Positions 1 to 46,255 of a DNA stretch of 64,000 nt are shown piece after piece (within the stretch, counting starts at the first letter, position 1; every line of letters begins with the position of its first letter). A model generated the notes under the pieces. That model made no database searches. It was not told where the DNA came from and worked only from the letters and a program-made list of their open reading frames with translations. The DNA is taken from positions 1 to 64,000 of the forward strand of contig JARRCS010000013.1 in the NCBI GenBank assembly GCA_029981855.1, given 5' to 3'. Source of the DNA: Halanaerobiales bacterium. Its GTDB lineage: Bacteria; Bacillota; Halanaerobiia; Halanaerobiales; DTU029. The position numbers and the translations under genes were made by a program.

Positions 1-98
1 AGTACAACTCACTTATTTAGTTATCGAACCGCCGTGTACGAGAACCGTATGCCCGGTGGTGTGAGAGGACGGCGGTTAATCACCGCCTCCTACTCGAT
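1..98 (+). mobile_element. 3' end of a group II intron (domains V and VI)
   Basis: The first 100 bases hold a domain V-like hairpin: ACCGCCG near base 28 pairs with CGGTGGT near base 54. The upper stem GTACG/CGTAT is capped by a 5-nt loop, and the lower stem contains a CGC triad. A domain VI-like hairpin follows (GGCGG/CCGCC, bases 72-88), with CTCCTACTCGATT at the presumed 3' splice end. I recognise this layout from bacterial group II introns. The ribozyme 5' part and any intron-encoded protein lie outside the window. The intron points opposite to the RT gene and ends inside its last codons. The exact 3' boundary (about 96-99) is uncertain. Confidence 0.72.
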
Positions 99-1115
99 TT
101 CTCCTAGTACCTTTTTCCGTATTCTGTAAGTATCAGCGTGCTTGCAATGGCCTAGCCAGGACATGATCGTTGCTTCAACCTTTTTTAAAGGTATCTTCCC
201 ATCATTAAAGTCTTTTTGAAGCTTCTTTAAACCCCTTTTAATCCTTTTTATAGACGATTTCCTTAAAAGTCTATGGGTTGGCCATATTCTATAGCCAACA
301 AAATTAATACCTTGATTAATCGGGAATACAGAGGTTTTCCCGTTAAGCTCTAAGTTTAGTTTTCTATCTAAAAAATCCCTGATTTCCTGTAGAAAGTACC
401 AAAGAAGCCTTTTGTCGTGATGAAGGATTATAAAGTCATCCATATATCTAATATAATATTTAGCTCTTAGATCGTGTTTTATAAAATAATCAAGTTCGTT
501 TAAATACACATTTGCAAAGAGTTGACTAGTCAAATTACCGATAGGAATCCCAACAGGATTTATTTCTCCAGCTTCAGCAGTGCTGTCTATTATCTTGTCA
601 ACTAACCAAAGTGTATCAGAGCAAACAATCTTCTTCCGTATTATTCTCTTTAAGATATTATGGTCGATGTTATAAAAATACTTTTTAACATCGGACTTTA
701 AGCAGTATACCTTATCCCACTTATTAGTTGTTATTCTTAAAAATTCAGTAGTGCGATCTGCCGCAGCATGAGTTCCCTTCCCTGGTCTGCAAGCATAGCT
801 ATCATAAATAAATCTATTTTCAAATATAGGCTCTATAACATTACATAAAGCATGATGTACCACTCTATCTTTAAAAGGCAACGCCATAATAATACGTTCC
901 TTTGGTTCATATATTTTGAATTCTCTATACCTTCCGCTTTCAAATGTTTTATATATTAATTCGTTTTGAATTTCTATTATATTGCCTTCTAAATTCATTT
1001 TAAACTTCAAAACTTCATTTTTATATCTTTTGCCTTTTTGGGCTTTAATATAAGCGTTATAAATATTATGAAAATCATATATATCAGGATATAAATTATT
1101 ATATGTTTTTGTCAT
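90..1115 (-). CDS. DGR reverse transcriptase
   Basis: This is a 341-residue retroelement reverse transcriptase of the diversity-generating (DGR) class. It would copy the template repeat RNA with adenine-specific errors for transfer into the variable repeat. Visible motifs in order are KSDVKKYFYNIDH (first catalytic Asp), IGNLTSQLFANVYLNELD (typical of DGR RTs, in place of the QG-SP motif of intron RTs), YMDDF (catalytic Asp pair) and NFVGYR. There is no maturase or endonuclease domain. ATG 1115 is preferred because AGGTG lies six bases upstream; a GTG 15 bases earlier is possible. The last two or three codons and the stop come from the antisense group II intron, so the native C-terminus was slightly altered. 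Confidence 0.95.
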   Translation of the reverse strand: MTKTYNNLYPDIYDFHNIYNAYIKAQKGKRYKNEVLKFKMNLEGNIIEIQNELIYKTFESGRYREFKIYEPKERIIMALPFKDRVVHHALCNVIEPIFENRFIYDSYACRPGKGTHAAADRTTEFLRITTNKWDKVYCLKSDVKKYFYNIDHNILKRIIRKKIVCSDTLWLVDKIIDSTAEAGEINPVGIPIGNLTSQLFANVYLNELDYFIKHDLRAKYYIRYMDDFIILHHDKRLLWYFLQEIRDFLDRKLNLELNGKTSVFPINQGINFVGYRIWPTHRLLRKSSIKRIKRGLKKLQKDFNDGKIPLKKVEATIMSWLGHCKHADTYRIRKKVLGEIE

Positions 1116-1318
1116 TATAATCACCTGCACTATTAATTAAAGAGGGCAACGGATAACTGTCGATTTTCTAATCTACCCGTTACCCGTTACCTTTTTAGAT
1201 GTTTTGCTGGCCAAATAATAAAAATTTAGCTCAACAAGGACCTGGATTCCTTTGCTTTTTAACGGCTCTGGATGGTTACCAAATAGGTAGCCAACTTCTG
1301 GCCAAAGATTTAAAGCAG

Positions 1319-1432
1319 AGCGGAGCGGAAGCCGATACTGTTGTTCGAGTTCGAGCGGTGATTGTTCAAATTCAGAGAGAAAACCCCAGCATTGGAGCCA
1401 TTGTTCCAGTTCCCACCGCGCCTGGCAACACT
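1319..1432 (-). repeat. DGR template repeat (TR)
   Basis: This 114-bp non-coding segment aligns without gaps to 1910-2023 in the target gene. Every one of the 12 differences falls at an A of the minus (coding-sense) strand; the other 89 positions are identical. Read in the target frame, the TR encodes a run of Asn (AAY) codons such as GGNWNNGSNAGVF, the usual mutable positions of a DGR. It lies between avd and the RT gene, the classical place for the TR RNA. The surrounding gap (1116-1467) has no convincing gene. Confidence 0.93.
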
Positions 1433-1467
1433 CATTAACAACCCAGGCCCTAAAATTGTATCCAAAT

Positions 1468-1812
1468 TTATTTGCTATTAATATATTTAAACCAACCACC
1501 TATCATTTTGCCAATTTCAGTTAAGTAACGAGACCAAACTTCATATTTTTTAAAAGGTAAAAACCCTAAGTTTCTGGCTAAACGAATATATGATCTCAAA
1601 ATATCTAACTCAACATCTAGCTGTTGCATAGTTGTTTTTTTATAATATTTTTTGTTAGTTGCAATTATAAGTTCTAGCAATCTAAACATACTCCTTTTTA
1701 TTTCCGCTGCTAAAGTATGTTTTTCAGACCTTGGGAATTGTTTCAATGCTGCATATCCATACTCAATCATATCTTCACATTTTTGTCTGATTTTTAAGTC
1801 TTGCAAAAGCAT
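1468..1812 (-). CDS. avd: Avd-like DGR accessory protein (four-helix bundle)
   Basis: This is a 114-residue basic, helix-rich protein between the target gene and the template repeat. Its length, position and repeated pattern of amphipathic helices match the accessory variability determinant family. Avd forms a barrel-shaped pentamer that binds the RT and the TR RNA and is needed for mutagenic retrohoming. The end, about LARNLGFLPFKKYEVW, resembles the conserved end of four-helix-bundle proteins encoded beside DGR RTs. The exact start is uncertain because ATG and a nearby TTG are both possible. Confidence 0.85.
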   Translation of the reverse strand: MLLQDLKIRQKCEDMIEYGYAALKQFPRSEKHTLAAEIKRSMFRLLELIIATNKKYYKKTTMQQLDVELDILRSYIRLARNLGFLPFKKYEVWSRYLTEIGKMIGGWFKYINSK

Positions 1813-1848
1813 CACCTATATTATATTTTAATATTATTTTTTAAGAAA

Positions 1849-1874
1849 AGGGGGTTCACTATCGTTCACCCCCT
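1849..1874 (-). terminator. Hairpin just downstream of the variable repeat
   Basis: A perfect 7-bp inverted repeat (AGGGGGT at 1849-1855, ACCCCCT at 1868-1874) with a 12-nt loop lies 36 bases past the VR. In the minus direction it is followed by TTTTCTT. Known DGRs need a hairpin or cruciform shortly after the VR for efficient retrohoming. The same element could also end transcription of the tail operon. Confidence 0.6.
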
Positions 1875-1894
1875 CAGATTATCATTGTATCAGA

Positions 1895-2977
1895 TTACAG
1901 GGAAACAAAAGCGGAGCGGAAGCCGATACTGTTGCTCGAGGACGAGCGGTGATAGCTCAAAAGCAGAGAGAAAACCCCAGCAACGGAGCCATTGCCCCAG
2001 CCCCCACCGCGCCTGGCAACACGTTCTCCATAATTTCGAGCCCAGACATTATCTCCTTCATATCCATCAGCATCTGCCGGGAATATCGCAAGCCATTTAA
2101 GAATATCAGGTACAGTGAAACCGCTTTTTGCCGCTAGTGATTGGAAGTTAGTACTGCTGTAACCGTAATGTTCGTTGCTGGTTGGGTCAGTAGTGTACAT
2201 AGGGTTGTCCAGTGCATCACCTAGAACAAGGTCGCCGCCAACATCATGGCTATCTTCCTGGGCGTCTCCAGCGGTTGTGTTGTCAATATATACCCCAGTG
2301 TCGATCCAGCCAGTTGTGTCGCCTTCTGCATTTTGTAAGGTAAAATCATTATCATCTATAATCCATATTTTACCATTTATCAATCTTAGTCCCTGTACCC
2401 ATTCCCATACATTACCGTTGAGATCAAATACACCCTCATTTGTACCGTCATGAGACCAGGGGGCAGGGCCCGAACCGGTAGCTACTCGACCAATCTTTTC
2501 CGGATCATCATATTTATATGTCGGAACACCTTTTTCATAAGGCGCAGAAACATCCTGGCCATAATTATTATTACCCCTGGGCATTGTACCGTTCTTTTTC
2601 GCCCATAACGCCAGAGCTGCCCATTCGGCATTAGTCATCAAATGCCAACCCTGACCTTTAGCGGTACAATATTGCATTGCATCATTGAAATTAGCATATA
2701 CCTTTGGATCTTGCATGGGCAAAGAATATGCTCTACCATCGTGTACAACATTTTGATATTTAGAAATATAAATTACATCTTTAATTTCGCCGTTAACCTT
2801 AAATGCAGGGTGTACTTCATGAGGCGCGCCATCAATTACGTCATCCAAATAAAATTTGGGTATAGCTACCATTATTGATGGGTACCCTTTGTCGTCGTAA
2901 ATAACAGTATTTTTGCCACCTGTTTGTGCTTCAACAGAAGCCCTATAAGTATCTTTAATACTATAAACAAAACTCAT
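1895..2977 (-). CDS. DGR target: tail protein with FGE-sulfatase/C-type-lectin fold
   Basis: This 360-residue protein is probably displayed at the tail tip to bind host receptors. The C-terminal two-thirds shows formylglycine-generating-enzyme-like signatures: WHLMTNAEWAALALW near 112-126, a GVFDLNGNVWEWVQG block near 183-197, and a final RRGGGWGNGSVAGVFSL / SIGFRSA block. The last 38 codons lie in the variable repeat, with Gly, Val, Leu, Ser and Tyr where the template encodes Asn. In known DGR ligand-binding domains this fold serves as a variable scaffold rather than an enzyme. It is the last gene of the tail operon, and its start overlaps the stop of the 120-residue gene upstream. Confidence 0.92.
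   Translation of the reverse strand: MSFVYSIKDTYRASVEAQTGGKNTVIYDDKGYPSIMVAIPKFYLDDVIDGAPHEVHPAFKVNGEIKDVIYISKYQNVVHDGRAYSLPMQDPKVYANFNDAMQYCTAKGQGWHLMTNAEWAALALWAKKNGTMPRGNNNYGQDVSAPYEKGVPTYKYDDPEKIGRVATGSGPAPWSHDGTNEGVFDLNGNVWEWVQGLRLINGKIWIIDDNDFTLQNAEGDTTGWIDTGVYIDNTTAGDAQEDSHDVGGDLVLGDALDNPMYTTDPTSNEHYGYSSTNFQSLAAKSGFTVPDILKWLAIFPADADGYEGDNVWARNYGERVARRGGGWGNGSVAGVFSLLLSYHRSSSSNSIGFRSAFVSL
1910..2023 (-). repeat. DGR variable repeat (VR)
   Basis: This copy of the template repeat (offset 591 bp) covers the 3' end of the target gene. Twelve substitutions relative to the TR are clustered in the first two positions of Asn codons, and all arise from template adenines. The coding-strand 3' end, about GGCTTCCGCTCCGCT (1910-1925), is identical in both copies and is the likely initiation-of-mutagenic-homing site. 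Confidence 0.93.
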
Positions 2978-3339
2978 TATTTAATCCCTCCATCTGTGAT
3001 ATTGAATTCTCCAGGTAGTCCCCAGAGTATTAATTTAACTTCATCTAAAGACAGTTCTTTTTTGGTGTTTTCCATGATAGGTTGATTGTTTTCATCTACT
3101 TCACCAGTATCAATTAATTCATATTCAGCTGCTGGTATAATCAAATTAGCAACATACCATTTGTCTACTCCTTGAATTAATTCCATATTTTTATTTAGGG
3201 AAATATCAATAACTACTTCTACATCAGCTTGGTTTTCTTCAAGGTTAATAGTCAACCTATCATTAAAAGTAATAGTTTTTTGATTTTCGTTAATTGAGTA
3301 AGGAATTTTATTTCCCTTATTGATCTCTTTAATAATCAT
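2977..3339 (-). CDS. Hypothetical distal tail protein
   Basis: This 120-residue acidic protein is predicted to be mostly beta strand, with no recognised domain. It lies between the fibre-like gene and the DGR target, and the target ATG overlaps its stop. Position suggests a fibre connector or a chaperone for the DGR-diversified tip protein. That role is inferred only from context. Confidence 0.75.
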   Translation of the reverse strand: MIIKEINKGNKIPYSINENQKTITFNDRLTINLEENQADVEVVIDISLNKNMELIQGVDKWYVANLIIPAAEYELIDTGEVDENNQPIMENTKKELSLDEVKLILWGLPGEFNITDGGIK

Positions 3340-3351
3340 TTATTAACCTCC

Positions 3352-3837
3352 TTAAACATCAGGATTGACTAGGGACCATCTAATTTTTACATAATCAGCA
3401 GAACCGGTGTATTTAATCTTGAAGCCGTTGCTTGACTTATCATAAACAACAACGTCGCCAACAAGGCCAGGATCGCCTTCGACAATCTCGGTTAATACAG
3501 AGAATTCAGGGGAATCAAGTTGAGTATATCCCTCTAGCGCCACTATCGCGTATGGGTCAGAATCCCTGAAATAAATATTTGTATCAGCATTATTTATTTC
3601 AACGACGCCCTCCTGGATTCGCTGCTTCTGCCATTTTTCAAGTTCAAGCTGATTACTCCTTATTTGCCGGGCCAATTCGGCAATAAAGGCGTTGTAAGTA
3701 TTATGAAGGTCGATGCCTGCTTCCATTCGATTCATGTTATTTTCGTCATATAAAGTTCCTTCTAAGATCACATTTCCATTTTCGTCAACTACCTCATCCT
3801 GCCATTTAATAGGATTATAATCATTTTCATACTGCAT
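3352..3837 (-). CDS. Tail-fibre/baseplate adaptor-like protein
   Basis: This is a 161-residue protein. The N-terminus holds the pattern W-x-DEVVDENGN-x-I-x-EGT followed by MNRMEAGID, a signature seen at the start of many Firmicute phage tail fibres. A helical stretch follows (about 42-75), then a beta-rich C-terminal half. The same N-terminal motif recurs in the small early gene at 27463-27636. It is probably a structural fibre part that links the baseplate to the DGR target protein. Confidence 0.75.
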   Translation of the reverse strand: MQYENDYNPIKWQDEVVDENGNVILEGTLYDENNMNRMEAGIDLHNTYNAFIAELARQIRSNQLELEKWQKQRIQEGVVEINNADTNIYFRDSDPYAIVALEGYTQLDSPEFSVLTEIVEGDPGLVGDVVVYDKSSNGFKIKYTGSADYVKIRWSLVNPDV

Positions 3838-3840
3838 TGA

Positions 3841-4137
3841 TTAACTCACCTCACTTATTGTGTAGTCAAAGGCCACCATTAAACCTTTGCGGGCTGGCTT
3901 TTCCATAATATCATTTTTTTCATCGATAACTTGGCCGCGGTCATCGATAAGTTCAACTTTTGTTACCGTTTGGGCGTTATCAGAAGCGGGTAAATATAAG
4001 AATACTCTTATATGGTCGCCGTCTCTTTCTACCCTTCTAATGTCAGTAACTTCAGTACTACCATCAACAGTAAACCTGCCCTCTTTAAGCATATTTTCGA
4101 TAGACTCTGTTAATCTTGCAATCCCTGTAGTATTCAA
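3841..4137 (-). CDS. Hypothetical tail protein
   Basis: This 98-residue protein is predicted beta-rich in the second half (VRVFLYLPAS, KVELIDDRGQVIDEK). It overlaps the gp48-like gene by four bases, so it is probably translationally coupled to it. No domain is recognised. Position between gp48 and the fibre genes suggests a minor baseplate or fibre component. Confidence 0.75.
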   Translation of the reverse strand: MNTTGIARLTESIENMLKEGRFTVDGSTEVTDIRRVERDGDHIRVFLYLPASDNAQTVTKVELIDDRGQVIDEKNDIMEKPARKGLMVAFDYTISEVS

Positions 4138-5135
4138 GATACCACCCTCCTTGTCTTAGTATTTTTGCTACATACCGGGAGAGAATTGACAGTATAACTT
4201 ACACCTGGTAGTAACGATATATTGTTATTGTTTTCAAAACCTGTTCTAATGGTTTTTAACTGGTTTTTACAAACCCTTAAATTACTTTGTTCTGATAAAG
4301 AACTGCCATTTAGTGAAACTACTTTATAGAAACCTTTTCCAGCTGTACTGCCTGACTTAGTTCTCTGACTTGAAACCATCAATTTATTATTTATCAAGCT
4401 GTTATTTAAACTAACAAGGGTTAAATCGGAAGTGCTTAGAGCGCCAGGAGTATTAATCTTAGTCTTTTTACTTGAAACCAAAGGATTAAATATACCTTCA
4501 ATAGTCCGTTTATTAATAGAAACCTCACGATTTTCAACATAACCAGTAACTTTATAAAATTCTTTTTCTTTACCTTTGAATGTCCCGCAAGCAGGACGGC
4601 GTGTCGATCTGCCTAAAAAATCATATGACCTGACTCTAAGTGTTTCATAATAAGTAAAAACGTAGTTAAGTAAAGCAATTGCTCTTTTAACTCGTCTAGC
4701 TTCTTTCTGGACAATATCAAAATTATTTAGTTCTTTTACGATATCTTGATCTATAAAAATATATAATTCTGACCATCTTTCAGGATCTACTTCATAAACG
4801 GGTTGGATTTCGGTATTGTCATACCCTAAAGCACTCAATGCTTTCAACATCCCCGAATCCGTTCCGCTTAATACGTATGTTTCAAAGGCATTTAATAGTC
4901 GTTTTCTATATGCTTCATTAGATTCATTGGCATAGCGAGGTAGGCCCCTGGCTTTACCTAAAACATCTAAAGCGGGGCCAGGAGCAGTCAGAATAAACCA
5001 GGCCCGTCTAATCTGAAAAATCGCCTGTTTAGCATCTTCCAAAATAGCCCCTAATGCTGTAAACCATTTTTTATTTTCTTGACCCTTTTTAAGGGGCCGA
5101 TTTAAAAGCGCCCAAAGATAGTCAAAAAACTTCAT
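4134..5135 (-). CDS. Mu gp48-like baseplate/tail protein
   Basis: This 333-residue protein has an N-terminal region like Mu gp48 and other tail proteins encoded directly after baseplate protein J: LLNRPLKKGQENKKWF, then a helical segment with LTAPGPALDVLGKARGLPRYANES and AYRKRLLNAFETY. The C-terminal third is Ser/Asn/Lys-rich with no recognised domain, perhaps a fibre attachment site. ATG 5135 is chosen because it sits one base past the stop of gpJ; a longer frame from 5201 lies inside that gene. It would form the baseplate wedge with gp46 and gp47. Confidence 0.85.
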   Translation of the reverse strand: MKFFDYLWALLNRPLKKGQENKKWFTALGAILEDAKQAIFQIRRAWFILTAPGPALDVLGKARGLPRYANESNEAYRKRLLNAFETYVLSGTDSGMLKALSALGYDNTEIQPVYEVDPERWSELYIFIDQDIVKELNNFDIVQKEARRVKRAIALLNYVFTYYETLRVRSYDFLGRSTRRPACGTFKGKEKEFYKVTGYVENREVSINKRTIEGIFNPLVSSKKTKINTPGALSTSDLTLVSLNNSLINNKLMVSSQRTKSGSTAGKGFYKVVSLNGSSLSEQSNLRVCKNQLKTIRTGFENNNNISLLPGVSYTVNSLPVCSKNTKTRRVVS

Positions 5136-5136
5136 G

Positions 5137-6276
5137 TTAAGCAGCCCTTTCAACTGTAATATTAACAGATCCTTTTGTAAGTAATTCTTTTGAATCCACA
5201 ATTAAATTATCTGCAGGTAAGTTTACTTTGACATTAAGGACGTTTTCGATAGTCATCAAATAATAAGTTATCTGGGATATATAAAGAGATTGACCTATAG
5301 TCAAAGGCATCAAACCAATAGTCGTTCTTAGTGTATAATTTTCAGTGAATAATGCTTCGACGATTTCCTGTGCTTGGTTAATAATATCCTGTTCATCTCC
5401 ATAAGCCTCTGGCAGTGTCAAAACAATATCAAAATCAACAGATATTTTAGTTGGCCCAGTTACTAAAACATTATCAATACTAGGTTTTTTGTCGTTTATA
5501 TAACTAGTTACTTGATCTATCAGTTCTGGGGAATCCGGATATATAATTACATCAACTGTGCCCTGACCTCTAGGATGTTGATCATCAACCTCAACATCAG
5601 TTACCCCTGCTACTTGCCTGGCCCAGGATATGTAAGCGCCTCTGGTGGTGCCGGTGGAGAGCTCCTCCCACTTTAAGTAATATCTTTCGCGTAAAGGGTC
5701 GTCTTCCTCTCTGTCTGTCCCTTCTTGGATAATCCACCCATCTGGATTATATATTGAATTAATCCCTGGGATGTGGGTGACTAAAATATTAATGTAATTG
5801 GGTCCAACATTATATTTGGCTCCGGCAAATTCTGCAGTTATGTTTACATCAAACTCACTTTCGCCTGCGGGAGATATAACTGTTTGGTCAACAAAAAACC
5901 GTAATTCTTCACCTTGCGAAGATAATTCTGTTTTCACTATAGTATCTGCTTCAACTTTTATATTTTTGTTCGAATCATCTTTTATAAACCTAATAATACC
6001 CTTAGTCTTGGTTGCATCGTGCCTTTTGATTCCTACTTCCGCAACCTTGATATCTAGCCACTTTCCACTAGTATACTGCACAAAACCCATAGGCAATACT
6101 TTAAGTAATAAATTGTATAGTTCAGCGATTGCTTTTAAGGGGATATAGGTTAAAGTTTTAAATACTCCTCCATCGTTCCAGTTAGTTATACTGCTTTTTA
6201 AGTTTTGCATTCTATCTTTTGCTTCTTCTTGAAGATTTTCGAAGGTTTTATAGTCAAAAAGGGTTTTCCAGTCCAA
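5137..6276 (-). CDS. Baseplate J-like protein (Mu gp47)
   Basis: This 379-residue baseplate wedge protein of contractile tails shows the usual J family features. An N-terminal helical segment is followed by the central VGPNYINILVTHIPGINSIYNPDG region and the strongly conserved GTDREEDDPLRERYYLKWEELSTGTTRGAYISWARQV segment (near 186-220). A C-terminal domain resembling gp6 wedge proteins completes it. It directly abuts gp46 and gp48 genes in the Mu order. Confidence 0.93.
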   Translation of the reverse strand: MDWKTLFDYKTFENLQEEAKDRMQNLKSSITNWNDGGVFKTLTYIPLKAIAELYNLLLKVLPMGFVQYTSGKWLDIKVAEVGIKRHDATKTKGIIRFIKDDSNKNIKVEADTIVKTELSSQGEELRFFVDQTVISPAGESEFDVNITAEFAGAKYNVGPNYINILVTHIPGINSIYNPDGWIIQEGTDREEDDPLRERYYLKWEELSTGTTRGAYISWARQVAGVTDVEVDDQHPRGQGTVDVIIYPDSPELIDQVTSYINDKKPSIDNVLVTGPTKISVDFDIVLTLPEAYGDEQDIINQAQEIVEALFTENYTLRTTIGLMPLTIGQSLYISQITYYLMTIENVLNVKVNLPADNLIVDSKELLTKGSVNITVERAA

Positions 6277-6684
6277 TTAAACCACCTCCCCCCGGCTTTC
6301 AAACTGATCATATTTAAGCAATAAATTCAATGGGTTGTTTTGGCCTATCGGAGTAAAAGAAACTAACAATTTAATAATTTTTAAATCCCATTCTTTGATA
6401 TCTACATTTACGCTGCCGGGTTTAACCCGTGGGTCTTTTTCTACTTCTTTTTTGACATCCTGAGACAATCCCATCCTGTTAATAAGGGTATTTTCATCAT
6501 TAATATATTTATAAATATCAACTCCATAATCTGGATTATAAAAAAGGTTCCCTCGGGGTGTCAAAAGACGATGGATAATATCTTGCGCCAGACAGGAGAG
6601 CCCCTGGGTAATTTCAATATCTCCAGCTGGAATTAATTCAAAATCGTTATTAAAAACTATATCACTACCAAATATATCACCCAT
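6277..6684 (-). CDS. Mu gp46-like baseplate protein (gpW/gp25 family)
   Basis: This 135-residue homologue of the gp25/gpW sheath-initiator group is a baseplate wedge part that starts sheath polymerisation. The segment IEITQGLSCLAQDIIHRLLTPRGNLFYNPDYGVDI (about 23-57) is the typical family core, followed by KKEVEKDPRV. It abuts the J gene with no gap. Confidence 0.9.
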   Translation of the reverse strand: MGDIFGSDIVFNNDFELIPAGDIEITQGLSCLAQDIIHRLLTPRGNLFYNPDYGVDIYKYINDENTLINRMGLSQDVKKEVEKDPRVKPGSVNVDIKEWDLKIIKLLVSFTPIGQNNPLNLLLKYDQFESRGEVV

Positions 6685-27636: not shown

Positions 27637-27670
27637 ATAAACACCTCCTTTCATAAACTTCTTATAGCCT

Positions 27671-27728
27671 GTCTCATCAGGACGGGTAGGCCACCTCCCG
27701 CCAACAGGGCATAAGGCCCTGTTTCGAC
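27671..27728 (-). ncRNA. Type II hammerhead ribozyme
   Basis: In minus-strand order: GTC (stem II 5' strand), GAAA core, stem III CAGGGC-CUUAU-GCCCUG, UU, stem I GGCGGG...CCCGUC (six pairs including one G-U), core CUGAUGA, then GAC (stem II 3' strand). All invariant core positions are present: C3-UGAUGA9, G12-AAA15.1, U16.1 and H17 (here U). The predicted cut is between 27703 and 27702. Stem II has only three Watson-Crick pairs before weaker pairing. It fills the gap between the TAG of the 51-residue gene and the RBS of the 57-residue gene. Confidence 0.82.
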
Positions 27729-27883
27729 TAATCAGTTGCTGCTACAGACCTTTTTAAATCTTCCATTTGCCGCTCTTCATATATCTGGGCTGCTTCTTCG
27801 GCGATTCGGTGAAGGGTTTCCTCGGATAGACCCGGATAACTTTCTTTCAGATTTTCTTTAACCCGTTCTTTGACATCGTTCAT
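27728..27883 (-). CDS. Small acidic helical protein
   Basis: This 51-residue protein with a GGAGGTG ribosome site upstream is fully helical in appearance (VKERVKENLKESYPGLSEETLHRIAEEAAQIYEERQ). No family is recognised. The last base of its TAG stop is also the first base of the hammerhead stem II, so ribosomes finishing this gene would run into the ribozyme. Confidence 0.75.
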   Translation of the reverse strand: MNDVKERVKENLKESYPGLSEETLHRIAEEAAQIYEERQMEDLKRSVAATD

Positions 27884-29457: not shown

Positions 29458-31500
29458 TTAAAAATCAAAACCTAATGCCTTCCTTAGTTCCTTCATATCC
29501 TGCTTTTTTTGTTTCTCCCTGTCGATTTTTTCTTTCTGCTCTTCAGTAAACATCTTAAAGAGTTCGGTTATATTATCATCCTGACCCTTAGTTGCTGCAC
29601 TCTCTCTGGCCTGTTTGTTTTGCTGCTTGTCCATTTTCTTAAGTGAATCATGAAAGTCTGGTTTAATTAGTTCTACCACCTTGGGATTATCAACCGGGTC
29701 TTCGGCCTGCATCCTGCGCCTTTTTTCTTTTTCTTTATCTTTGAGCTGGTCTTCAAGAGTGTATTCCTTCACCTGGACGAGATGTTCCTTGAATTCTTTA
29801 ACTGGTTGTTCGATTTTTTTGCGCATACTGTGGTATTCTTTCATCTGTTTTTCATCTGCAAAGATAGGATGAGATTTCTCTATGGCATAGGCCATGCAGA
29901 TCAGGTTGTCCTTCAGGTCACAGATATATACCTTTGTCAGGTCATCACTCTTGTAACGGACTATAACATCTTGACCATAATATTGCGCTAATTCTGGGCT
30001 GGTATAGTTTTGATTGAAGAGCTGGATACCGTTTCTCCTGACCTTGCGTGTGCCTGGTGATTTGGTCATCAAAAAGGCCAGGTCTTTTTCGCTGATCCAG
30101 CGGGTTTTCTTCAAGTTATTTTTATATACAACCCTCGGGCTTTTCCCGTTCATCGCCTCCCCGGTCTGGGGCCTTTCGTGATAATCCACATCCAGCCATT
30201 TGGCAAAGGTTTCTTTAAAGTCTTCAAAGGGGATAATATTGCTTTTATCCTTCAAAATATCTTCCAGGGATTCTTTGCGTTCCTGAACATTCCCGCCTCT
30301 AAAGGTTTTGAACTTTCTGTCGAAGGTATCTTTAACGATTTTAAAAGTCGGTTCAATTATTTTAGCCCTGGCATTAAAGGGAATGGCAAAATGGGGAGTT
30401 ATCTTTAATGCTTCAATCATTGAGGTAGCCTGATCTTGATCATATGAAATTTTCTTCTCACTTTCTTTGACCCGGCCACCAGCAAAAATCTTGGCCCGGT
30501 AATCTTTTCCGTTGTCAATAATGATGTGTTCGGGAGCCCCGTATTCCTCAATGGCTCGTCCAAAACTTTCCATAATGGTATTTAGGTTCGGGTTCAGGGT
30601 GATTGTGTAACCAACAAAAACAGATGACCTCATATCCAGCCAGGCTGTTAACCAGGGGGCTTTGATGGACCCATCTTCCATCAGTACAAAAACATCAAAC
30701 TGCCGGTGGTCTCCAACCCAGACCTCATTACTCTTCAGGAGGGTTCTGTCCCTTTCAATATATGGTAGTACCTTATTTTTGAATGCTGTTTTACCTTCAC
30801 GAAGAGCAATTTTGACCTGTGGTTTTAAATACCTCGGGTCTTTCACATACCTTCTCATGGTCCTTTCAGAGGGTATCTTGCCCCAGCCTTCTATTTTGGC
30901 TTTGGTCTTTACCGTCCGGTAACATTCAGATATAGAAAGCTGATTCTCGGTCAGATACAGTTTAAGAAAAAGCCACCAGGCATCCGGATTAATGTTTTCC
31001 GGAACCCCCTCCGGGGTAGAACTCTTTTTGAGGCCTCGCCGATCCATCAGACCCACGATACCTTCTTCTTTTAAGATCTTTTTGTCCCGGTAATAGGTTT
31101 TGGTGGAAAAGGGCCTGTCCGGGTAACTGGCTTTAACCACCTTACAGGCCTTGCGGGTAGCTTTGGTTTTGCCCATCCCCTCGGCCATGAATTCTTCAAT
31201 TAGTTCATCTGCCAGGTCAACCATTTTCTTTTTGATAATACCTTCCTCCCGGGCCCATTCGGCAAAATCCCCTACAGAATACGGTATGTAAATGTCATCA
31301 TCAGGTTTCTCTTCCTGAGCTAAGTGTCGGGCTATAGCCTCCGGGGGAAGGTTGAAAAGGTTAATCTTCATCACCTGGCCACCGCGCCCCATGCCTTCTA
31401 CATATTTAACCTGGCCGTATTTACCGTTGTTGGCATTTTTTTGGACTGCCCTCTCGGAAATGCCGCATAGTTCTGCTACCGTGCCGGTGTCTAGGAACAT
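29458..31500 (-). CDS. Mu-type transposase A
   Basis: This is a 680-residue DDE transposase. The N-terminal wHTH (VAELCGISERAVQKNANNGKYGQVKYVEGMGRGGQVMKINLFNLPPEAIARHLA) is followed by end-binding HTH domains (about 80-230). The catalytic core holds Asp in WVGDHRQFD (near 266), Asp in IIIDNGKDYRAKIF (near 332) and Glu in KIIEPTFKIVKDTF (near 383). A C-terminal basic region with LRKALGFDF probably contacts MuB. It drives integration and replicative transposition of the phage. Confidence 0.96.
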   Translation of the reverse strand: MFLDTGTVAELCGISERAVQKNANNGKYGQVKYVEGMGRGGQVMKINLFNLPPEAIARHLAQEEKPDDDIYIPYSVGDFAEWAREEGIIKKKMVDLADELIEEFMAEGMGKTKATRKACKVVKASYPDRPFSTKTYYRDKKILKEEGIVGLMDRRGLKKSSTPEGVPENINPDAWWLFLKLYLTENQLSISECYRTVKTKAKIEGWGKIPSERTMRRYVKDPRYLKPQVKIALREGKTAFKNKVLPYIERDRTLLKSNEVWVGDHRQFDVFVLMEDGSIKAPWLTAWLDMRSSVFVGYTITLNPNLNTIMESFGRAIEEYGAPEHIIIDNGKDYRAKIFAGGRVKESEKKISYDQDQATSMIEALKITPHFAIPFNARAKIIEPTFKIVKDTFDRKFKTFRGGNVQERKESLEDILKDKSNIIPFEDFKETFAKWLDVDYHERPQTGEAMNGKSPRVVYKNNLKKTRWISEKDLAFLMTKSPGTRKVRRNGIQLFNQNYTSPELAQYYGQDVIVRYKSDDLTKVYICDLKDNLICMAYAIEKSHPIFADEKQMKEYHSMRKKIEQPVKEFKEHLVQVKEYTLEDQLKDKEKEKRRRMQAEDPVDNPKVVELIKPDFHDSLKKMDKQQNKQARESAATKGQDDNITELFKMFTEEQKEKIDREKQKKQDMKELRKALGFDF

Positions 31501-46017: not shown

Positions 46018-46081
46018 GAAAAAAAGCCCCGGCAAGGGTAAATTCCTTGCAATGTACGAAGGAACTTACCCGCCCAGGCTT
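46018..46081 (-). terminator. Riboswitch-controlled terminator
   Basis: Minus strand: GCCTGGGCGGGTAAGTTCCTT (46080-46060, 5' arm) pairs with AAGGAATTTACCC...GGGGC (46048-46025), followed by seven T residues. The 5' arm includes the conserved 3' end of the PRPP aptamer, so ligand binding and termination are mutually exclusive. Confidence 0.82.
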
Positions 46082-46166
46082 TTATCCCCACGGTGTAGTA
46101 TCACTTAAAGTGAAACCTGCACCACTCGGTCCAGACCTTGATTAAAGCGGAACCCTAGGTGCACTT
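46066..46166 (-). promoter_or_regulatory. PRPP riboswitch aptamer (ykkC subtype 2b)
   Basis: In order on the minus strand: GTGCACCTAGGGTTCCG, TGGACCGAGTGGTGCAGGT, a variable hairpin (TTTCACTTTAAGTGA), ACACCGTGGGGATAAAAGCC, then TGGGCGGGTA. The CTAGGGTTCCG, CCGAG, ACAC and GGGATAAAAGCC blocks are the ykkC signature, and the GGGCGGGTA end matches what I recall of PRPP aptamers rather than guanidine ones. ppGpp (subtype 2a) aptamers are very similar, so the ligand call rests partly on the adjoining guanine aptamer. Confidence 0.82.
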
Positions 46167-46167
46167 C

Positions 46168-46236
46168 CCTCGTAGTCAGGTAGTTTACGGCCACCCGGTA
46201 GAAACTTGTGAACCATATCTTCACAATTATACGAGG
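46168..46236 (-). promoter_or_regulatory. Guanine riboswitch aptamer
   Basis: Minus strand: P1 CCTCGTATAAT, GATATGGTTCACAAGTTTCTACC and CCGTAAACTACCTGACTACGAG fit the purine aptamer with its two kissing loops. The discriminator base in GACTA is C, which selects guanine/hypoxanthine; adenine aptamers have U. It lies directly upstream of the PRPP aptamer, separated by one or two bases. Confidence 0.93.
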
Positions 46237-46255
46237 CTTTCCTTATGTCATTTTT

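Follow-up and report, generated by a model that had tools for sequence, protein, structure and literature searches.

Phased triplet arrays behind the variable repeats of diversity-generating retroelements as a candidate recipient element

A diversity-generating retroelement (DGR) in a Mu-like prophage carries, behind its variable repeat (VR), an array of short triplets set 7 to 8 bases apart, and comparable arrays are found behind the VRs of many other DGRs. We propose, with a probability of about 0.45, that the recipient sites of DGRs share an undescribed cis element made of phased triplets with a spacing of 7-8, which lies behind the VR and is absent behind the template repeat (TR), the triplet being CTG in the clade of the window (i.e. 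the whole 64,000-nt stretch of DNA that was analysed) and TTG, CTT or TGA elsewhere. According to the accessible part of PMC12875486 (2026), the discrimination between recipient and donor and the entry of the mutagenized cDNA into the VR are incompletely understood. The DGR of the window joins thousands of others. If the array is a recipient element, it would be short, mutable and phylum-spanning, and its spacing, which can be tested base by base, would open part of this question to direct testing. It would also provide a DNA signature to locate DGR targets, even far from any reverse transcriptase (RT) and with no need for the TR.

A DGR cassette in a Mu-like prophage

The cassette runs on the minus strand in the order target with VR, avd, TR and RT, and the frames of RT, avd and target are open and full length. 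The RT gene (90..1130, minus strand; 346 aa, first in-frame ATG at 1115) was recognized by its motifs and by matches to Pfam RVT_1 (3.7e-20) and PHROG 1423 'Reverse transcriptase' (1.1e-149). The closest solved structure is 8ub7 'Reverse transcriptase' (8.1e-74), which we take to be the RT of BPP-1. The translation contains the DGR-type motifs IGNLTSQ and YMDD; the former agrees with the signature of DGR-clade RTs in motif 4, (I/V/L)GxxxSQ, as given in the accessible part of PMC3521204, and the latter with YxDD. The spacer that separates TR and RT (1131..1318, minus strand) is expected, from its position, to be the 3' part of the template RNA. The avd gene (accessory variability determinant; 1468..1815, minus strand, 115 aa) matched NCBIfam NF033474 (6e-37, 126.1 bits vs a cut-off of 80), Pfam bAvd (1.4e-35) and PHROG 3206 (1.6e-43). 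The target gene (1895..2977, minus strand) encodes a variable protein of 360 aa with an FGE/C-type-lectin fold, as indicated by matches to Pfam FGE-sulfatase (2e-11), PHROG 2889 (1.1e-130) and PDB 5vf4 chain A (1.7e-69 over residues 2-358), the latter being presumably TaqVP, the T. aquaticus variable protein. The VR corresponds to codons 320-356 of the 360, i.e. to the 3' end of this C-type-lectin-fold gene.

The genes found upstream encode baseplate, sheath, tape-measure, portal and terminase proteins as well as a MuA-type transposase (PHROG 310, 4.1e-113). This combination of a MuA-type transposase with contractile-tail morphogenesis genes is that of a Mu-like prophage, and the locus is almost certainly the DGR of this contractile-tailed prophage. 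It is a textbook cassette in the BPP-1 order and, as such, an ordinary new case of a known kind. Elsewhere in the window, a type II hammerhead ribozyme match (47.1 bits) was observed within the prophage stretch (27663-27729, minus strand), and ARAGORN called a tRNA-Sec (30377-30457, plus strand) inside the transposase gene, on the opposite strand, which is probably a false call. A purine riboswitch and a guanidine-I (ykkC-like) match just above the gathering score, overlapping by 17 bases, were present at 46069-46254 (minus strand); we take this tandem to be, possibly, of the guanine-PRPP type.

A repeat finder run on the window placed the TR and the VR in a direct repeat of 120 nt, with copies at 1312-1431 and 1903-2022 and a spacing of 591. 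Ungapped alignment delimited the TR to 1319-1431 and the VR to 1910-2022 (both minus strand). Over this core of 113 bases, read on the coding (minus) strand and free of gaps, the two copies differ at 13 positions, which correspond to 13 of the 24 adenines of the TR and to none of the 89 other bases (Fisher p = 6.5e-11). Since the VR has G (7), T (4) or C (2) at the changed sites, i.e. A>G, A>T and A>C substitutions, the polarity is from TR to VR. The limits of the core had been set by the first non-A mismatch, and the full 120-nt repeat was therefore tested too, as drawn by the repeat finder: 13 of 24 adenines and 3 of 96 other bases were changed (p = 1.2e-8), all three non-A changes being located within the last seven bases. 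Extending the core by the pair 1432/2023, to 114 bases, adds one A>C change, for a total of 14 of 25 adenines and 0 of 89 non-A bases. The initial annotation had mentioned 12 differences over these 114 positions, which is an undercount by two; its figures of 25 adenines and 89 other positions, none of the latter differing, were found again in our recount, and realignment with counting by base confirmed that only adenines are affected. The 13 core changes are all in codon positions 1-2. Eight of the 10 template Asn codons were altered and now read Gly, Gly, Val, Leu, Ser, Tyr, Ser and Ser. The 14th change (1432), on the border of the repeat, converts AGT to CGT and falls outside the Asn codons.

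We considered the possibility that TR and VR result from an ordinary duplication followed by drift. Such an event would explain the presence of two copies and nothing beyond it, and its probability is negligible when 13 of 24 adenines but 0 of 89 other sites are changed, when RT and Avd adjoin the repeats, and when the second DGR of the same genome (see below) displays the same pattern. Past mutagenic retrohoming, the interpretation put forward in the initial annotation, is thus supported, the A-only pattern from TR to VR being part of a complete DGR. The absence of differences at the 89 non-A sites also indicates that drift after the latest homing event was slight (about 3% at non-A sites as the 95% upper bound, by our own estimate). 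That the system has been active in this lineage is correct as a statement about the past and does not cover present activity. In this respect, the DGR might be a relic, with a VR rewritten in the past and a cassette that no longer works, as could be suspected from the imperfect stem of the hairpin and from the array unit that reads ATG instead of CTG (both described below). We consider this improbable, as the three frames are open and full length and as TR and VR are devoid of non-A drift. No close relative carrying this TR was recovered: the TR had no match in 7 other genomes of the family, and the best RT relatives share only 63-67%.

The phased array and its distribution

The VR ends with CGGCTTCCGCTCCGCT and is followed by about 35 bases, mostly array, up to a hairpin. 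The array, CTGTAAT-CTGATACA-ATGATAAT-CTG (1875..1900, minus strand, by reading of the sequence), begins at the final codon of the target and takes in its stop codon, and the triplets of the array are 7-8 bases apart. Its units are three CTG and one ATG, which amounts to a chain of just 2 when CTG only is counted. Within its own genome, the array sequence has an exact match only at 1875-1900. The hairpin (1849..1874, minus strand) adjoins the array directly, which places the array between the stop codon and the hairpin. It has a GATA loop, of the GRNA type, and an imperfect stem of 7 + 2 pairs interrupted by tandem G.A mismatches, the usual DGR hairpin being a GC-rich stem of 7-10 bp with a GRNA loop. 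Its DNA fold (-8.1 kcal/mol, z -1.85) is weakly better than that of shuffled sequences, 11 of 200 shuffles being as good. Array and GRNA-loop hairpin are both absent behind the TR of the window.

Relatives were gathered by their RT, 80 loci from IMG/VR and 80 from GTDB genomes. An ungapped A-only repeat pair, which by construction holds no internal non-A change, was found by scanning in 122 of these 160 loci. The bases printed behind the VR contained a unit made of CTG and an A/T-rich stretch in the window and in many relatives, and at least three CTG at a 7/8 spacing were present within 100 bases behind the VR in 37 of 124 loci, as compared with 0 of 124 behind the TR. Chains were then defined as at least 4 equal triplets, whichever the triplet, at a 7/8-nt spacing between -5 and +60 of the VR end, and were counted in 83 dereplicated loci out of 136. 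They were present behind the VR in 36 of the 83 DGRs, at least three of which (L074, L135, L174) seem to reflect chance or a wrongly placed VR end, and behind the TR in 1 of 83. In the same test, the rate of positives was 0.30% among shuffles, 0.70% when 4842 random windows were examined and 0.47% for 3193 GC-matched windows from the same loci. Spacings of 4/5, 5/6, 9/10, 10/11 and 11/12 gave 0 to 2 chains behind the VR, while 6/7 gave 2 and 8/9 gave 9, the last two both overlapping with 7/8. A clear excess of base identity behind the VR was confined to lags 7, 8 and 15. Furthermore, near the TR, chains of three or more CTG or CAG were found in 0 or 1 of the 83 loci.

The triplet differs by lineage: many bacterial DGRs have CTG, Omnitrophota loci have TTG and a Fischerella plasmid has CTT. 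Fewer than 4 units were found in 47 of the 83 DGRs, with one or two in Lachnospiraceae and none in most archaeal loci. The array is present in many phyla and with distant RTs, and its distribution on the RT tree is clustered but scattered (21 changes of the array label vs a mean of 27 after shuffling; 6 of 500 shuffles as low). GRNA hairpins with a perfect stem of at least 6 bp, a rule that misses the hairpin of the window itself, followed the VR in 22 of 123 loci and the TR in 0 of 123. Six gut phage loci (L029, L031, L033, L035, L039 and L042) are alike behind the VR and vary in their number of changed adenines from 10 to 15; they are likely a place where DGR activity can be seen directly.

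A strict array pattern, CTGNAATCTGNNNNCTGNNAATCTG, was derived from DGR loci and run over all of IMG/VR. It gave 30 matches, some of which are near-copies of each other; 25 were on contigs new to the analysis and 5 on contigs already in the RT search set. In all 30, a VR or a VR-like end precedes the match, as supported in 23 cases by an RT (E at most 1e-5; L180 has only a weak RT piece nearby) or an A-only pair in the locus, and by eye in 7 (L184, L185, L190, L192, L197, L201, L205), 6 of which are no more than 384 bases from the end of the locus. A control pattern with GTC for CTG had 0 matches in IMG/VR. In 398 genomes of the phylum, the strict pattern matched 4 times, in 3 genomes, and the reversed control 0 times. 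Each of these four matches is at a VR end; an A-only pair and Avd are present in all four loci, and an RT in three of them. One belongs to the second DGR of the present genome, and L269 and L270 are near-copies. In the latter two, which come from two species of the phylum, VR, array and hairpin are identical over the 140 bases printed, which suggests a recent spread of the prophage.

A relaxed pattern yielded 57 matches in IMG/VR. An RT or an A-only pair was present in the locus for 33 of them; among the remainder, 12 had a VR-like end by eye, 2 were unclear (L252, L264) and 10 were not DGRs, 7 of these 10 representing one near-identical stretch free of DGR features. As 10 of the 57 matches were not DGRs, only the strict pattern is specific. 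Five loci (L232, L233, L262, L239, L205) combined an array with a VR-like target end, and no RT was found in the locus; they are possible remote DGR targets.

Possible roles of the array

Because the array precedes avd in the window, it could belong to avd rather than to the VR. Yet, on a Fischerella plasmid and a Nostoc plasmid, it follows the first of two VRs, and the next gene is another target; in L075, it follows a VR located behind the RT. In a Gracilinema genome (L109), it follows a VR on a different contig, where the forward frames printed behind the VR contained no long open frame. This remote VR is an old or uncertain recipient, since 10 of its 19 mismatches are at non-A sites. In the genome of L107, the array behind the remote VR is weaker, and 6 of the 16 mismatches of that VR are at non-A sites; no remote VR was found in the genome of L141.

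These observations bear on the idea that the array, though genuine, does a different job, e.g. controlling the expression of avd or providing stop codons in several frames. Its location between the target stop codon and avd in the window, and the stop codon that it contains, would fit with such a job; its occurrence behind VRs that are away from avd and its 7/8 spacing, which is no codon multiple, make this explanation unlikely in our opinion. It is also rather improbable that the array is a functionless by-product of slippage or repeated copying. Tandem periodicity can indeed arise in this way, but the array is shared by many phyla and distant RTs and is absent after the TR. Furthermore, among the 40 neighbouring inter-CTG spacers of 20 parsed arrays, only 2 were identical, and the spacing alternates between 7 and 8; such differing spacers argue against plain slippage.

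With the array as a recipient element, homing could be pictured as follows. From what the literature reports, RT-Avd would copy the TR with errors at A, and the VR would then be replaced. We infer that array and GRNA-loop hairpin would mark the VR as recipient and the TR as donor. The uncertain part is whether they help the RT-Avd-RNA complex to dock or place the cDNA end, for which we see an even chance. Avd is a pentamer, and the reader of the array may be a multi-subunit part of the homing complex, e.g. the Avd pentamer contacting successive triplets. Complementarity between the array and the template RNA was also considered and was not convincing (26 of the 83 loci had an 8-mer that matched the TR region, vs 17.3 expected from shuffles).

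No description of a phased array was encountered in the accessible passages of PMC3240598, PMC4372165, PMC10743442, PMC3521204, PMC6642488, PMC4891356, PMC7517822, PMC10907252, PMC12875486, PMC10053308, PMC11792537, PMC6328139, PMC7290462 and PMC5006420, and term counts in PMC8144416 were all zero. As far as these passages go, the array is apparently undescribed.

Comparison with known systems

The genome of the window carries a second DGR (contig C39, L087, about 3065-6382), which is complete, with RT, Avd, TR, VR and target. It has the same gene order as that of the window, an RT and an Avd that are each 65% identical, and likewise a CTG array and a GATA hairpin. It differs by belonging to another prophage, by its target (512-aa, FGE-like) and by its TR, only 77% like the first one; 8 of 16 adenines are changed in a 78-nt block found by the A-only pair scan. 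Cross-feeding between the two DGRs was rejected, as each TR, when compared by eye with the VR of the other DGR, shows a 3-base gap and numerous differences at non-A sites. The DGR of Bacillus phage BalMu-1 (NC_030945) is also in a Mu-like phage and has an SUMF1/FGE-type target, Avd, an RT with 49% identity, and a CTG array and a hairpin behind the VR; its sequence has diverged, and the array is not annotated. The prophage DGR of Thermus aquaticus (TaqVP, PDB 5vf4) has a target to which that of the window is related over its full length (E 1.7e-69) and, according to the accessible part of PMC6328139, the same order target/VR-avd-TR-RT, though phage and host are different.

The DGR of the Bordetella phage BPP-1, as described in the accessible passages of PMC3240598, resembles that of the window by its gene order, its adenine-only exchange and the GRNA-loop hairpin behind the VR. 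In its recipient site, a GC-only block of 14 bp and an IMH of 21 bp are separated from the hairpin by 4 bp, and the 21-bp element at the VR end has five mismatches with the TR and sets the direction of transfer (same passages). The window departs from this type of site: there is no GC-only block at the VR end, and about 35 bases precede the hairpin. In the BPP-1 element, as printed in these passages, TGA triplets occur at a spacing of 8 and then 7, the third ending one base outside of it, and by our own, post hoc count 4 of the 5 TR mismatches fall within the first two TGA triplets. Because this reading is post hoc, and because chains of three occur in about 7% of windows, it is only a hint; the 21-bp IMH of BPP-1 may be a short form of the phased array.
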